Origin: Desulfuromonadaceae bacterium
Lineage (GTDB): Bacteria > Desulfobacterota > Desulfuromonadia > Geobacterales > Pseudopelobacteraceae
DNA: 36,116 bases
Reading direction: 5' to 3'
Assembly (NCBI GenBank): GCA_028686145.1
Contig: JAQUCQ010000002.1
Coordinates: forward strand, 1 to 36,116
A program made the position numbers and the translations under genes. Positions 4,548 through 14,235 of this stretch are shown here, piece after piece. Positions within the stretch are counted from its first letter, which is position 1; each line of letters opens with the position of its first letter. The notes under the pieces were generated by a model, which was not told the DNA's origin, made no database searches, and saw nothing but the letters and a program-made list of their open reading frames with translations.

Positions 4548-5822
4548 TCAGCATTCTGCGGAAACCATGTTGAAGCGCCACTTGTATGCATCAAGCTGTG
4601 CATCAAGAAGACTGCCCAAAGGGATATTCGTTGCTTCCACAAGTGATTGGACTTCACCAAAGTTAACATGTTCAAGTGTCTCGGCAAGCGCCAGCAGTTC
4701 GCCTATTTCGCCTCCACGATTAAGGAGCGCCTCCGTTACAGCATCGCTCATATTTAATTCCTGTAAGATTTGTTCCATGGATGTCTCAAAAAGGACATCC
4801 ATAAGTGACATGATGCCGGCCAGAAAAGATTCTTCAACCGCTTCGTTGTCTCGGGAGGTGCCATGACGCAACATAGTAAGATACTCCATGAAACGTCCTC
4901 GGACAGCTGCCATCTCAAGAAGCGGGTTATTTATACCCCCGCTCGCAGAGCAGGCGTATATCGCGAGTTGCGTCCAACGACGGAGTTTATCCAACCCAAG
5001 GATCATAATTGCGTGACGGAGATTTCTAATCTTCTCCCGCAAACCAACATTGACAGAGTTTACAAGTTTAATCAGGTTGTAGGACAAGTCAGGATAGGTG
5101 CGAAATACCGTTTCGATATCATCGAGATCCATATTTCCGCGCAGAGATTCAAGCAGTTTGAGCATGCCGATCTTTGAGGTGTCAGGAGCTTTCCTCTTGA
5201 GCACTATTGGACGGGCAAAAAAATAGCCTTGAAAGAGTTCAAAACCCAACTCTCGGCATTCCTCAAACTGTTCCATTGTTTCTACGCATTCTGCAAGGAG
5301 TATGACGGGGAATTGCTTCAGTTTCTGTACCATCTCGCGGCAACCTTCACTGGTCGTCTCAAGCAAATTTATTTTTATTATATCGATAAATTGGTAAAAT
5401 GCGGCATTTGTAGAGGAATACGTATGATCATCAAGGGCCAGTCGAAAGCCTTGAGCTTTAAGAGTGCGTGCCCGGGCCTCATTTATTTCGTTAAAGGGCA
5501 TCGTTTCAAGAAGTTCCAGCACAATATGTTCCCGGGGGAGAAGTTCTATCGTTTCCGACAGCAGCACGTCTTCGGTTATATTTATAAAACCAAGCGTATT
5601 CCCCAACACCTCATGCAGCCCAAAATTAGTAAGGGCACTTGAAATGACACTGGCACTGGCAAAGTTCTGGCTATCATAGGTACTTCTATTGCACTCAGAA
5701 GAACGGAAAAGGAGTTCATAACCCACAATTTCCTGCCTGACATCCAGTATCGGTTGCCTGCCAAGAAAAATTTCCTGCCTGCCTATTTTCTGATTCTGGG
5801 GTTCATTCAACTGTTCATCCAA
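4548..5822 (-). CDS. EAL-HDOD (YuxH-like) signalling protein with degenerate EAL domain; apparent TTG start
   Basis: GRQPILDVRQEIVGYELLFRS, LALDDHTYSS, IIKIN and LLAECVETMEQFEECRELGFELFQGYFFARP (EAL-like), then an HDOD-like region (LIKLVNSVNVGLREKIRNLRHAIMILGLDKLRRW). Confidence 0.88.
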   Translation of the reverse strand: MDEQLNEPQNQKIGRQEIFLGRQPILDVRQEIVGYELLFRSSECNRSTYDSQNFASASVISSALTNFGLHEVLGNTLGFINITEDVLLSETIELLPREHIVLELLETMPFNEINEARARTLKAQGFRLALDDHTYSSTNAAFYQFIDIIKINLLETTSEGCREMVQKLKQFPVILLAECVETMEQFEECRELGFELFQGYFFARPIVLKRKAPDTSKIGMLKLLESLRGNMDLDDIETVFRTYPDLSYNLIKLVNSVNVGLREKIRNLRHAIMILGLDKLRRWTQLAIYACSASGGINNPLLEMAAVRGRFMEYLTMLRHGTSRDNEAVEESFLAGIMSLMDVLFETSMEQILQELNMSDAVTEALLNRGGEIGELLALAETLEHVNFGEVQSLVEATNIPLGSLLDAQLDAYKWRFNMVSAEC

Positions 5823-5882: not shown

Positions 5883-6959
5883 CTATGTATAGTTGTATGC
5901 ACTCGTAGTACGAATTTGCTTAAAATTCGATTCAAGTTCGAGAAAAGCTGCTACGATTTCTGTATCAAACTGTTTTCCGCTTTCTTGGGCTATCATTTCT
6001 TTTACATGTTCATGGTCCAGAGCCTTCCGGTAACAACGATCAGAGCAGAGTGCATCATATACGTCAGCCAGAGCCATTATTCTGGCTGACAGTGGTATAT
6101 TCGTACCCGAAAGCCCATCCGGATACCCTTTTCCATCCCACCGTTCATGATGATAGAGAGCAATCTCGATCCCCATGCCAATAAATGAGTTGTCAGGATA
6201 GCGGTTATACACCGTCTGCATATTACTCCCGCCGATTACGGTGTGGGTTTTCATGATTTCAAACTCTGCTTCGGTAAGTTTACCAGGCTTAAGCAGAACT
6301 GAATCAGGGATTGCCACTTTGCCAATATCGTGCAGAGTCGAGGCATGATAGAGGCAATCAATATAATCAGGAGTGAGTTGCCCGGAATAGGAGCTGTTGG
6401 AGTTAAGATATTCTGCCAACTGACGACAATATTCCTGAACACGCTCAAGATGGGAACCGGTGTCTTCGTCCCGGTTTTCGGCAAGTTTTGCCATGGCAAA
6501 TATTGTCGCGTGCTGGGCTTTTGAAATTTCTAAGATCTTTTTTTCTACAACTTTTTGCAGTTCAATTGTTTCGGCCATTGAACGGAGATTAAGATGCACG
6601 TCAATTCTTGCAAGGACTTCCTGATAATGAAAGGGTTTGGTGATGTAATCAACGCCTCCTGCCTGAAAACCGCGAATGATATCTTCCTTCTGTGCCATGC
6701 CACTTAAGAAGACCACCGGCGCCTTAAGACCTCTTCGCTTTACCTCTCTACAGAGTTCATATCCGTTCATTTTTGGCATTGATATGTCGAGCAGAATCAA
6801 ATCCGGAGGATTTTCTTCCATAAAATTAAGGGCTTGAGTACCATCCTGAAAAGTTTTCGTTTCCCAATTTCTGGCATTAAAAATATTACTTAAGAGTTCA
6901 AGTATTACAGGTTCATCATCAATAATAATAATTTTCTGTTTGGTGATGAGTGCATCCAT
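5883..6959 (-). CDS. Response regulator with REC receiver and HD-GYP c-di-GMP phosphodiesterase domains
   Basis: REC: IIIDDEPVILELLSNIF...DLILLDISMPKMNGYELC...PVVFLSG...DYITKPF. HD-GYP: STLHDIGKVAIPD...ALYHHERWDGKGYPDGLSGTNIPLSARIMALADVYDAL. Start MDALITKQK at 6959 with AGAGG RBS. Confidence 0.95.
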   Translation of the reverse strand: MDALITKQKIIIIDDEPVILELLSNIFNARNWETKTFQDGTQALNFMEENPPDLILLDISMPKMNGYELCREVKRRGLKAPVVFLSGMAQKEDIIRGFQAGGVDYITKPFHYQEVLARIDVHLNLRSMAETIELQKVVEKKILEISKAQHATIFAMAKLAENRDEDTGSHLERVQEYCRQLAEYLNSNSSYSGQLTPDYIDCLYHASTLHDIGKVAIPDSVLLKPGKLTEAEFEIMKTHTVIGGSNMQTVYNRYPDNSFIGMGIEIALYHHERWDGKGYPDGLSGTNIPLSARIMALADVYDALCSDRCYRKALDHEHVKEMIAQESGKQFDTEIVAAFLELESNFKQIRTTSAYNYT

Positions 6960-6986
6960 TTGTTTGGACCTCTGTAGCTCATAAGT

Positions 6987-7028
6987 TAAAAAACAAAAAA
7001 CCTGCATTTTTTGTGAAATGGCAGGTTT
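6987..7028 (-). terminator. Intrinsic terminator in the leader of the HD-GYP gene (riboswitch expression platform)
   Basis: Minus strand AAACCTGCcATTT-CACAAA-AAATGCAGGTTT followed by TTTGTTTTTT, located between the GEMM-like aptamer and the HD-GYP start codon. Confidence 0.85.
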
Positions 7029-7061
7029 ATCGGATATTTTATGTAGTTAATATCCAGTGCA

Positions 7062-7140
7062 TCTGTTCGACAACCCCTCTTCCCGTTCTGGGCAGGTAGC
7101 TTTGCGTCATCCGGTTCCCCGAATTTTGCCATTTCGTGAT
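7062..7140 (-). ncRNA. GEMM-I type (c-di-GMP-I) riboswitch aptamer
   Basis: Minus strand: CACGAAATGGCAAAATTCGG-GGAA-CCGGATGACGCAAAGCTACCTGCCCAGAACGGGAAGAGGGGTTGTCGAAC. Has the GGCAAA block, a stem closed by a GNRA (GGAA) tetraloop, the hallmark GACGCAAAGC, a second stem, and GGGGTTGTCG matching the conserved GGUUaCCG end. Upstream of a c-di-GMP turnover gene. Confidence 0.85.
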
Positions 7141-7156
7141 ATATTTAATTCTGTTA

Positions 7157-7185
7157 TTTATGAACCTCTTGTTTTCTTGTGTCAA
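7157..7185 (-). promoter_or_regulatory. Sigma70-type promoter of the riboswitch/HD-GYP transcript
   Basis: Minus strand TTGACA (7180-7185), 17-bp spacer, CATAAA (7157-7162). Predicted start lies just upstream of the aptamer. Confidence 0.6.
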
Positions 7186-11084: not shown

Positions 11085-12542
11085 TTACAGCAGTTTTACT
11101 GCCATCTGTGCGTACTCGAGAATTACTGACGGCACAATTCCAGGAATCAGAGTGCCAGCGACTGCAATGATGAGTGCCAGTGCAACCGGAGGAGTAACGT
11201 GTACCCACTCGAAATCTTCTGTAGATTCTTTGAAATACATGAAAACCATAATGCGAAGATAATAGTACACTGATGCGGCACTGTTAAGAACACCGATAAC
11301 TGCCAGCCAGATATAACCTTTCTGAATTGCACCGGAGAACAGATAAAATTTACCGATAAAGCCTGCTGCGGGAGGAACACCAGCGAGTGAAAAAAGGAAG
11401 ATTGTCATTGCAAGAGCCAGAACCGGCCGCTTGAAACCGAGGCCAGCAAAGTCAGACACATTGCCATTGGATTCACCCTTTTTGGCAACCAAAATAATAA
11501 TCGCAAAAGCTCCAATGTTCATAAAGGAGTATGAGAGCATATAGAACAGGATACCAGCAGTACCCGTCCCATTACCGGCAGCAAAACCGACAAGAGCATA
11601 TCCTGCGTGAGCAATGGATGAATAAGCAAGGACTCGTTTGATGTTGTCCTGACGAAGGGCTGTTATATTACCTACCGTCATGGTCAATACTGCCAGTACC
11701 CAGAGGACCTGACTCCATTCAACCTGAAGCGCCGGAAGAGCAACAAGGAAAAGACGGAGTAGTGCTGCAAAACCGGCAGCTTTAGGACCAGCTGACATAA
11801 ATGCGGTCATCGGAGTCGGAGCGCCCTCGTATACATCAGGTGTCCACATGTGAAACGGTGCGGCTGCAATTTTAAAGGCAAATCCAGTCATCATGAGCAA
11901 CATTCCTGCTACGAGCATGATGTTTGTAGACGGAAGTGTCATCTGCCCGACAACTTCAGCTATCTTGTAGAGGCGGGTAGTTCCGGTTGCGCCATAGATA
12001 AGGGCCATACCGTAAAGCATAAATCCGGTGGAGAACGCACCCAGCAGAAAGTATTTTAGACCGGCTTCATTGGACTTCTTATTGGCCCTGTTAAATCCAG
12101 CAAGTACATAAAGAGTTACTGACATTACTTCGAGCCCGAGGAATATCGTCATCAGGTCCGTACCGGAAGCCATCAGCATCATACCGACAACGGCAAAGAG
12201 AATCAGGGAATATAACTCGCCATGGTTACACTCTTCTCGCTCCATGTACTTGTCTGCAATCAGTACAGTTAACCCGGCGCCAACCAGAAAGGTCATCTTG
12301 AAGAACGTAGCAAAATTATCAAGAACGACTGACCCACCAAAGCTCTCAACGTGACTGCCCCAACCAGCTCCTACCAGCACCGCTGCCGCAACAATACCGA
12401 TAAAACTGATGTATGCAAGGTATGACTTCTGCTTACCAGGTACAAATACATTGATCAGCAGAAGAGCCATAGCCAGCACGGAGAGAAATATCTCCGGTAG
12501 AATCGGCGTCATGTTGACGACTGGAATTAAAATCATGTCCAT
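11085..12542 (-). CDS. nuoN: NADH-quinone oxidoreductase subunit N
   Basis: Antiporter-like subunit: FKIAAAPFHMWTPDVYEGAPTPMTAFMSAGPKAAGF, RVLAYSSIAHAGYALVG. Last gene of the nuo operon. Confidence 0.96.
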   Translation of the reverse strand: MDMILIPVVNMTPILPEIFLSVLAMALLLINVFVPGKQKSYLAYISFIGIVAAAVLVGAGWGSHVESFGGSVVLDNFATFFKMTFLVGAGLTVLIADKYMEREECNHGELYSLILFAVVGMMLMASGTDLMTIFLGLEVMSVTLYVLAGFNRANKKSNEAGLKYFLLGAFSTGFMLYGMALIYGATGTTRLYKIAEVVGQMTLPSTNIMLVAGMLLMMTGFAFKIAAAPFHMWTPDVYEGAPTPMTAFMSAGPKAAGFAALLRLFLVALPALQVEWSQVLWVLAVLTMTVGNITALRQDNIKRVLAYSSIAHAGYALVGFAAGNGTGTAGILFYMLSYSFMNIGAFAIIILVAKKGESNGNVSDFAGLGFKRPVLALAMTIFLFSLAGVPPAAGFIGKFYLFSGAIQKGYIWLAVIGVLNSAASVYYYLRIMVFMYFKESTEDFEWVHVTPPVALALIIAVAGTLIPGIVPSVILEYAQMAVKLL

Positions 12543-12579
12543 CTAAAATATCCTCCGGTCGGATTGACTCGTTATTTGT

Positions 12580-14235
12580 TTATTTTGCTTCGTGCGGATT
12601 AACAACAGGTTCTGCATGTGGTGTAGAAGGAACGTCAACAGCAGGATGTCCGGCTGGCAACTGATCCATACCGGGATGTCCGACAGGCATTTGCTCCATT
12701 CCCGGATGACCAGCGGGCATCTCGGCATCAGGAATCACCTGGGCATTGACAGATGAAACATGAACCTGTGCTACAAGCTTGTTGATTGCAGGCTCCATCT
12801 TATCAATGAAGGGCTTCGGGTAAAGACCTATGAAGAAAATCAAAACTACAAGAGGAACCATAATCACTACTTCACGAACATTTAGATCAGATAATTTCTG
12901 GTTTTTAGGATTATCAAGTTCGCCAAACATGACACGCTGAAAGACCCACAACATGTAAACTGCGGAGAGAATAACACCGCTCGTAGCAACAATCGTCCAC
13001 CAACGCAGCTGACTTTCAAATGCGCCGAGTAAGATAAGGAATTCGCCGACAAAACCATTCGTTCCGGGTAAACCGACCGAGGAAAAAGTGACAATCATAA
13101 ATATTGTCGCAAATACCGGCATCTGTTTCGATAAGCCGCCAAAATCTGTAATAAGGCGGGTATGGCGACGTTCATATATAAAACCAACTATAAGGAACAG
13201 TGCACCTGTCGAAACACCATGGTTAATCATCTGGAGCATCCCGCCGGTAATACCCTCAGTATTGAAGGCAAAAATTCCGAGCATTACAAACCCCAGGTGG
13301 GCTACAGATGAGTAGGCAACAAGTTTTTTAACATCTTCCTGTACCATGGCAACAAGTGCTGCGTATATAATTCCGATAACCGCGAGGGTTGCGATCAGTG
13401 GTGCAAACTTCTGAGCCGCATCAGGAAAAAGCGGGATAGCAAAGCGCACATACCCGTAGGTACCCATTTTCAACAAGACTGCAGCAAGTATAACTGAACC
13501 GGCTGTTGGAGCTTCAGTATGGGCATCGGGTAACCACGTATGTAGTGGAAACATCGGAACCTTGATTGCAAAGGCGAAGGCAAATGCCAGGAACAACCAG
13601 ATTTGCGTTGCCATATCGAGCTTGAGACTGAAGAAGTTCAACAGACCAAAATCAGTAATGCCGGCTTCCATTCCTTTAAAGTAGAGGAAAATCAATGCTA
13701 CCAGCATCAGGAGAGACCCGACCATGGTGTAGATAAAGAACTTCACAGCTGCATATAGTTTATTTTTACCACCCCAGATGCCGATCATGAAATACATCGG
13801 AATCAGCATGACTTCCCAGAAAATGTAGAAGAGAAACAGATCCAACGAGATAAATGCGCCCAACATACCTGTTTCAAGCAACAGGAGACAGATCATGTAC
13901 TCCTTAACTTTCTCTTCAACTGCAGTGTAAGTTGAAAGAACAGCTATCGGCATAATAAAGGTGGTCAGGATAACGAGCCAGAGGCTGATTCCGTCAATAC
14001 CAATGTTATAGCGCATGATGAAAGGCCCAGCAGCAATCCAGGGTACATTTTCTGTAAATTGAAACTCAGCATTGGACTGGAATCCTGTCAGGATGATCAG
14101 CGACACCAGGAAAGTCACAATTGTTACCCCAAGGGTGACATTCCGGAGCACTCCTTTGCTGTCTTTAGGGATAAACAGCAGCAGCAGGACACCCAGTATC
14201 GGCAGGAATGTCGTCAGGCTCAGTACGTTACTCAT
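12580..14235 (-). CDS. nuoM: NADH-quinone oxidoreductase subunit M with repeat-containing C-terminal extension
   Basis: FAIKVPMFPLHTWLPDAHTEAPTAGSVILAAVLLKMGTYGYVRF, KKLVAYSSVAHLGFVMLG. C-terminal MPAGHPGMEQ MPVGHPGMDQ LPAGHPAVDV repeats. Confidence 0.96.
   Translation of the reverse strand: MSNVLSLTTFLPILGVLLLLFIPKDSKGVLRNVTLGVTIVTFLVSLIILTGFQSNAEFQFTENVPWIAAGPFIMRYNIGIDGISLWLVILTTFIMPIAVLSTYTAVEEKVKEYMICLLLLETGMLGAFISLDLFLFYIFWEVMLIPMYFMIGIWGGKNKLYAAVKFFIYTMVGSLLMLVALIFLYFKGMEAGITDFGLLNFFSLKLDMATQIWLFLAFAFAFAIKVPMFPLHTWLPDAHTEAPTAGSVILAAVLLKMGTYGYVRFAIPLFPDAAQKFAPLIATLAVIGIIYAALVAMVQEDVKKLVAYSSVAHLGFVMLGIFAFNTEGITGGMLQMINHGVSTGALFLIVGFIYERRHTRLITDFGGLSKQMPVFATIFMIVTFSSVGLPGTNGFVGEFLILLGAFESQLRWWTIVATSGVILSAVYMLWVFQRVMFGELDNPKNQKLSDLNVREVVIMVPLVVLIFFIGLYPKPFIDKMEPAINKLVAQVHVSSVNAQVIPDAEMPAGHPGMEQMPVGHPGMDQLPAGHPAVDVPSTPHAEPVVNPHEAK
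12631..12720 (-). repeat. Three 30-nt in-frame tandem units encoding (M/L)P(A/V)GHP(G/A)(M/V)(E/D)(Q/V)
   Basis: Read directly in the nuoM 3' end: ATGCCCGCTGGTCATCCGGGAATGGAGCAA / ATGCCTGTCGGACATCCCGGTATGGATCAG / TTGCCAGCCGGACATCCTGCTGTTGACGTT. Confidence 0.9.

Follow-up and report, generated by a model that had tools for sequence, protein, structure and literature searches.

A short-P3 GEMM-I leader with a natural U92 pocket, probably a c-di-GMP OFF switch, ahead of a REC-HD-GYP operon in a Desulfuromonadaceae bacterium

The leader and the genes behind it

The window analysed here, a whole stretch of 36,116 nucleotides from a Desulfuromonadaceae bacterium, carries on its minus strand a promoter, a GEMM-I aptamer, a small hairpin, an intrinsic terminator and a ribosome binding site, followed by a REC-HD-GYP gene and an EAL-HDOD gene, probably the second gene of the operon (Table 1). 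The Rfam covariance model RF01051 matched positions 7140–7066 over model positions 1–87 with 53.7 bits (E 6e-8), compared to a gathering score of 35 bits; this was the sole Rfam match in the window, and well-known control genomes gave no RF01051 match above the cut-off. The original prediction had placed a GEMM-I riboswitch at 7062–7140; its family assignment is confirmed, with all conserved blocks that it named found on the minus strand, while the aptamer proper spans only 7066–7140. The invariant A47 and the GACGCAAA block are both present, and the P2 tetraloop is GGAA, of the GNRA type. The locus holds a genuine c-di-GMP-I (GEMM-I) RNA sensor, which belongs to an established type of switch but has an unusual pocket.

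The second stem, which had been flagged as unusually short, is common to at least 29 leaders in related genomes, here called the short-P3 subfamily (P3 = CCTGCCC-5 nt-GGGAAGAGG). The GACGCAAA block is identical in 29/29 of these leaders, and the receptor side of P3, GGGAAGAGG, departs from the consensus yet is near-constant across the subfamily. The short stem is a subfamily hallmark and not a mark of decay. Leaders L168–L202 (alignment A1), with P3 of the form CCTGCCC-N5-GGGAAGAGG, combine a near-invariant aptamer with a common 5′-strand antiterminator platform that is reused on many different genes, suggesting that the short-P3 leader may have been copied as a whole unit. A family of 111-aa proteins (LIDVPK...YPRQYES) with no Pfam match lies behind the short-P3 GEMM-I leaders L169, L177, L180, L189 and L197, making it a candidate for a new c-di-GMP-linked protein.

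Table 1 Features of the locus, in window coordinates
Feature	Positions	Strand	Evidence
Promoter, TTGACA (7185–7180), 17 nt, CATAAA (7162–7157)	7157–7185	−	Sequence; conserved in orthologs
c-di-GMP-I (GEMM-I) aptamer, 75 nt, short-P3 subfamily	7066–7140	−	RF01051, 53.7 bits
Predicted antiterminator 5′ strand GAAATGGCA (aptamer 5′ strand, holds position 20)	7127–7135	−	Pairs with 7023–7015
Equivalent of Vc2 G20 / pilM A14 / Bc1 G11: G	7130	−	Rfam alignment and published equivalences (PMC9262584, PMC7288161, PMC11218506)
Equivalent of Vc2 A47 (intercalates between ligand bases): A	7103	−	Rfam alignment
Equivalent of Vc2 C92 / pilM C75 / Cd1 C87: U (natural C92U)	7070	−	Rfam alignment, ortholog comparison
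Spacer hairpin GGATATT...AATATCC	7032–7055	−	Sequence and fold
Intrinsic terminator AAACCTGC ... GCAGGTTT and T tract	6995–7028	−	Sequence; conserved stem over 29 leaders
Predicted antiterminator 3′ strand TGCCATTTC, overlapping terminator 5′ arm	7015–7023	−	Leader comparison
Ribosome binding site AGAGG, 9 nt before ATG 6959	6969–6973	−	Sequence
REC-HD-GYP gene, intact phospho-acceptor region (LLDISMP), HD...HHERWDGKGYP signature	5883–6959	−	Pfam, translation
EAL-HDOD gene, probable second operon gene, EAL site degenerate-looking (ELL/DDHT)	4548–5822	−	Pfam, translation, gene order

The remaining layout is also as had been proposed: both promoter hexamers are present with their 17-nt spacer, as are the small hairpin, the ribosome binding site and the intrinsic terminator, supporting a transcription-terminator platform. 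The TTGACA and CATAA elements are kept in the diverged orthologous leaders L017, L018 and L019, in which the flanks differ. A generic consensus scan does not list the promoter pair, whose second hexamer falls outside the scan's rule, and a simple terminator scan misses 7028–6995 owing to the long loop. The coding sequence most likely begins at ATG 6959; a mechanical open reading frame start at 7007 was rejected, as it falls inside the terminator.

The first gene encodes a response regulator receiver joined to an HD-GYP domain (Pfam Response_reg, 5.9e-31; HD_5, 1.6e-29) with the phosphodiesterase motifs TLHDIGK and HHERWDGKGYP (HHExxDGxGYP). Among proteins of solved structure, the closest are PA4781 (4r8z), which bears the name of a cyclic di-GMP phosphodiesterase, and PmGH (4mcw); the cGAMP-specific V-cGAP3 (5z7c) is further off. 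The REC and HD-GYP signatures are intact, and the proposal that the leader controls a gene predicted to degrade a cyclic dinucleotide is supported; the autoregulatory loop that had been suggested would stand only if the HD-GYP protein degrades the ligand of its own leader. Elsewhere in the window, at 11085–14235, two adjoining NADH:quinone oxidoreductase/Mrp-type membrane subunits, possibly part of a complex I operon, are unrelated to the riboswitch.

The order of leader, REC-HD-GYP and EAL-HDOD is kept in four species: the organism itself (assembly G000), G029, G020 and G006, the last with an HD-GYP protein 72% identical to that of the window. In a fifth species, G018, the HD-GYP gene is absent and the leader, of the same short-P3 subfamily, stands directly before the EAL-HDOD gene (79% identical).

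The ligand pocket and its distribution

When GEMM-I RNAs are divided into c-di-GMP and cGAMP sensors, the base relied on most is that at position 20. The pocket was registered on published equivalences: A14 and C75 are the ligand contacts of the pilM cGAMP aptamer (PMC7288161, PMC9262584), C87 and not C88 is used in Cd1 (PMC9262584), and G11, A38 and C81 of Bc1 correspond to G20, A47 and C92 of Vc2 (PMC11218506). In an A20 aptamer from the same genome (L004), the equivalents of A14, A41, A42 and C75 all fall at one constant offset from the pilM numbering. As predicted, position 20 is G, so the leader lacks the A20 of GEMM-Ib. The second ligand base has its Watson-Crick partner at position 92, where the leader carries U in place of the C of GEMM-Ia, and c-di-GMP can therefore not be read off the pocket; the specificity claimed originally, which was based on position 20 only, does not hold as argued. 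Since U92 is a recurrent natural variant, this lowers the claim to specificity and leaves family membership untouched. The commonest natural variants at positions 20 and 92 are said, in a 2010 abstract by Smith, still to pair with both guanines.

The U92 base can be set beside earlier work on both positions. Replacing A20 by G in a Geobacter cGAMP aptamer shifts its ligand to c-di-GMP (PMC6456294), and engineered C92U in the pocket of class I reportedly permits 3′,3′-cGAMP binding (review, PMC12032345); crystal structures of the Vc2 C92U mutant exist (3MUR, 3UD3, 3UD4). A role of U92 in stabilising the ligand-free fold through a helix with the GAC of GACGC was considered and rejected: helix probability was 0 for GUC, ACC, GCC and AUC at 7071–7069, and these swaps shifted the folding ensemble only slightly.

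The organism's own assembly (437 contigs) contains 12 RF01051 matches above the cut-off, eight of them A20/C92, the cGAMP or GEMM-Ib type, and one each of four other types: G20/C92 (L001), G20/G92 (L002), C20/C92 (L012) and the G20/U92 of the window. With A20/C92 and G20 aptamers in one genome, the organism appears to employ GEMM-I RNAs of both kinds. Its genes include one for a REC-GGDEF protein bearing an NDxxGHLVGS (GHLVGS) signature, which we take to be GacA-like, a Hypr-type GGDEF. Those A20 aptamers that were checked have different target genes, several of which encode cytochromes or lipoproteins.

Other natural pockets were also seen. L002:1501-1595 (contig C24) combines G20 and G92 with a GU:AC pair adjoining the pocket, and L012:1501-1647 (contig C276) has C20 and a very long P3, with a match to a group II intron domain about 1.3 kb away. 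On contig C176, two identical A20/C92 aptamers, L010:548-624 and L011:747-823, lie 199 nt apart as a tandem pair. The combination C20/C92 is also found in L061 (G032) and L066 (G014).

To place U92 among related bacteria, a strict G20 motif pattern was run on 141 genomes of the order, with chance matches removed and strings curated by hand. This gave 33 U92 and 99 C92 sites, compared to about 10 U92 and 117 C92 (hand-counted) in the class of Desulfosporosinus, so that U92 is commoner in the order (p = 2e-4); the pattern being strict, all these counts are lower bounds. Matches L163, L168 (really C92), G113, G114 and G019 were excluded as chance hits or as being out of register, and L171 was excluded for its ambiguity. 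Of the 132 canonical-motif G20 aptamers counted in the order, 33 (about a quarter) have U92, so that for these the ligand is unreadable from position 20.

This enrichment suits a reading in which the window holds a natural cGAMP or dual c-di-GMP/cGAMP sensor, its G20 holding the G and its U92 making a Watson-Crick pair with the A, a mirror image of the A20/C92 solution of GEMM-Ib. Such a reading draws further on the gain of 3′,3′-cGAMP binding by engineered C92U (PMC12032345), on the at least eight A20/C92 aptamers and the GHLVGS cyclase of the same genome, and on the HD-GYP enzymes (V-cGAPs) that hydrolyse 3′,3′-cGAMP only (PMC12032345). The distribution of U92, however, argues against it. 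Per genome, U92 showed no association with A20 aptamers (present in 24/111 genomes with them vs 6/30 without, p = 1), and it occurs in Firmicutes and in genomes with no detected cGAMP parts, G004 and G014, in which neither an A20 pattern match nor a GHxxGS cyclase pattern match was found and a GHFAGT cyclase pattern match is present. In addition, the G20 and A20 regulons of the organism itself differ, and the same gene families stand behind U92 and C92 aptamers, namely REC-HD-GYP, a second HD-GYP, PilZ, EAL-HDOD and the 111-aa protein. Within the short-P3 subfamily, U92 is found in 16/29 leaders, and the second HD-GYP gene follows a C92 leader in G015 (L187) and U92 leaders in G119 and G122; its homolog in the organism's own genome (L001) lies behind a related C92 leader with a different P3.

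The shared targets, the lack of association with A20 and the occurrence of U92 without cGAMP parts favour one ligand, c-di-GMP, for C92 and U92 aptamers, as opposed to a separate cGAMP class, and on these comparative grounds c-di-GMP is the likelier ligand in the window; we regard cGAMP or dual sensing here as unlikely. Quite unlikely, too, is the broader proposal that natural G20/U92 GEMM-I RNAs form a second, mirror-image subclass of cGAMP or dual-ligand sensors in the order, which would have escaped notice through the focus of annotation on position 20, and which, if true, would put an HD-GYP phosphodiesterase under cGAMP control. With the same genes standing behind both U92 and C92 aptamers, in organisms that use cGAMP as well, the question of the ligand becomes directly testable.

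The expression platform and the direction of control

The terminator at 7028–6995 and the aptamer share no nucleotides. Within the terminator 5′ arm and loop lies TGCCATTTC, whose 9 nt are complementary to GAAATGGCA of the aptamer 5′ strand, a stretch that takes in position 20 and the pocket-adjacent GC; the GAAATGGCA/TGCCATTTC helix is part of the leader's minimum free energy fold. Over the 29 leaders, the antiterminator pairing holds in 95.8% of cells, with 5/9 of its pairs invariant, compared to 36–55% when the partner is slid by 1–3 columns and 93.0% in column shuffles, 0/500 of which were as high. At column 12, 18 leaders have A-U and 5 have U-A, a covariation in which the double change belongs mostly to one locus lineage. 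RNAalifold, unaided, chooses the antiterminator helix as the consensus. The terminator stem is paired in 97.1% of cells with two covarying pairs, and the sequence that links the aptamer to the terminator varies among the leaders. Part of the antiterminator conservation is explained by the need of the terminator 5′ arm to pair with its own 3′ arm.

The antiterminator and terminator helices are mutually exclusive. At the level of sequence, aptamer and terminator are compatible and the antiterminator excludes both, so that the platform looks like an OFF switch, in which ligand would lead to termination. Equilibrium folding favours the antiterminator in a minority of leaders that includes that of the window, and the terminator in most others, which does not settle the direction between ON and OFF.

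We consider it probable, with some reserve, that this G20/A47/U92 short-P3 GEMM-I RNA senses a cyclic dinucleotide, probably c-di-GMP, and turns its operon OFF. In the proposed mechanism, c-di-GMP would be held by G20 and, at position 92, by a G-U wobble. Without ligand, the aptamer 5′ strand would pair with the terminator 5′ arm once this is transcribed, and since the antiterminator strand is complete before the terminator 3′ arm has been transcribed, RNA polymerase would continue into REC-HD-GYP and EAL-HDOD. Ligand would lock the 5′ strand in the aptamer, the terminator would form and the phosphodiesterase would not be made.

The opposite arrangement, a c-di-GMP ON switch by which the substrate induces its own phosphodiesterase, has the appeal of intuitive homeostatic logic through negative feedback, and the Geobacter A20 leaders pilM and pgcA are ON switches (PMC9262584, PMC6456294). 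The pilM terminator, however, includes the aptamer 3′ strand (PMC9262584), unlike that of the window, where the aptamer 5′ strand competes for the terminator arm, as expected for OFF control; we judge an ON switch improbable here.

A pocket-damaged aptamer that has lost switching, leaving the leader constitutive, would agree with a ligand-contacting base changed from what was probably C and with a score of 53.7 bits, below the 63 bits of the paralog L001. U92 is found in G000, G029 and G020, and C92 in the more distant orthologs G006 and G018, so C92 is probably ancestral at this locus and U92 derived. The derived base nonetheless appears to be under constraint: compared to the window, the aptamer differs at 0/75 positions in G029 and 1/75 in G020, whereas 21 and 26 sites, respectively, are changed in the 142 nt upstream, and 58/360 and 56/360 among third codon positions. 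U92 also recurs in many aptamers of different subfamilies and the antiterminator is retained, and loss of function is to our minds very improbable. Bypass of U92 by a one-base slip, with the ligand pairing the neighbouring C93 as if it were C92, could appeal to the tolerant P1 side of the Cd1 pocket, where P1 is dispensable (PMC9262584), but C93 (7069) can form P1 with the G of CACG and there is no direct evidence for a slip, which we hold to be very improbable as well.

Under the preferred reading of c-di-GMP OFF control, the conserved antiterminator pairing implies positive and not negative feedback: high signal would suppress the gene that removes the signal, a double-negative loop. The original prediction was right about the family but treated the pocket incompletely, and it gave its autoregulatory loop no direction. 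The predicted logic would be self-reinforcing, not self-limiting or a substrate-induced degradation, and OFF control of the phosphodiesterase by its own substrate would sharpen the switch between high and low signal states, so that RNA-based bistability in c-di-GMP signalling could be tested on this operon.

Comparison with known systems

Vc2 of V. cholerae (RF01051) shares with the window aptamer the conserved blocks, the GNRA P2 loop, G20, A47 and a short 5′ side of P1; it differs in having C92 where the window has U92, and in its P3, which is much shorter in the window (5-nt loop). The Vc2 C92U mutant (3MUR, 3UD3, 3UD4) has the same pocket bases, G20/A47/U92, engineered in Vc2 but natural in the window and conserved in at least three species. 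The cGAMP riboswitches of Geobacter (GEMM-Ib; pilM, pgcA) are alike in fold and, by inference, in organism group; they are A20/C92 with CU:GG adjoining the pocket, where the window has GC:GC, they control other genes, and pilM is an ON switch. The c-di-GMP OFF switch Cd1 of C. difficile resembles the mechanism proposed for the window leader in that aptamer and terminator can coexist, ligand favours termination and the antiterminator disrupts the aptamer (OFF logic, PMC9262584). Its antiterminator, however, uses the aptamer 3′ strand (A with T), as opposed to the 5′ strand in the window (P with T), and its targets are flagellar genes, compared to REC-HD-GYP and EAL-HDOD here.
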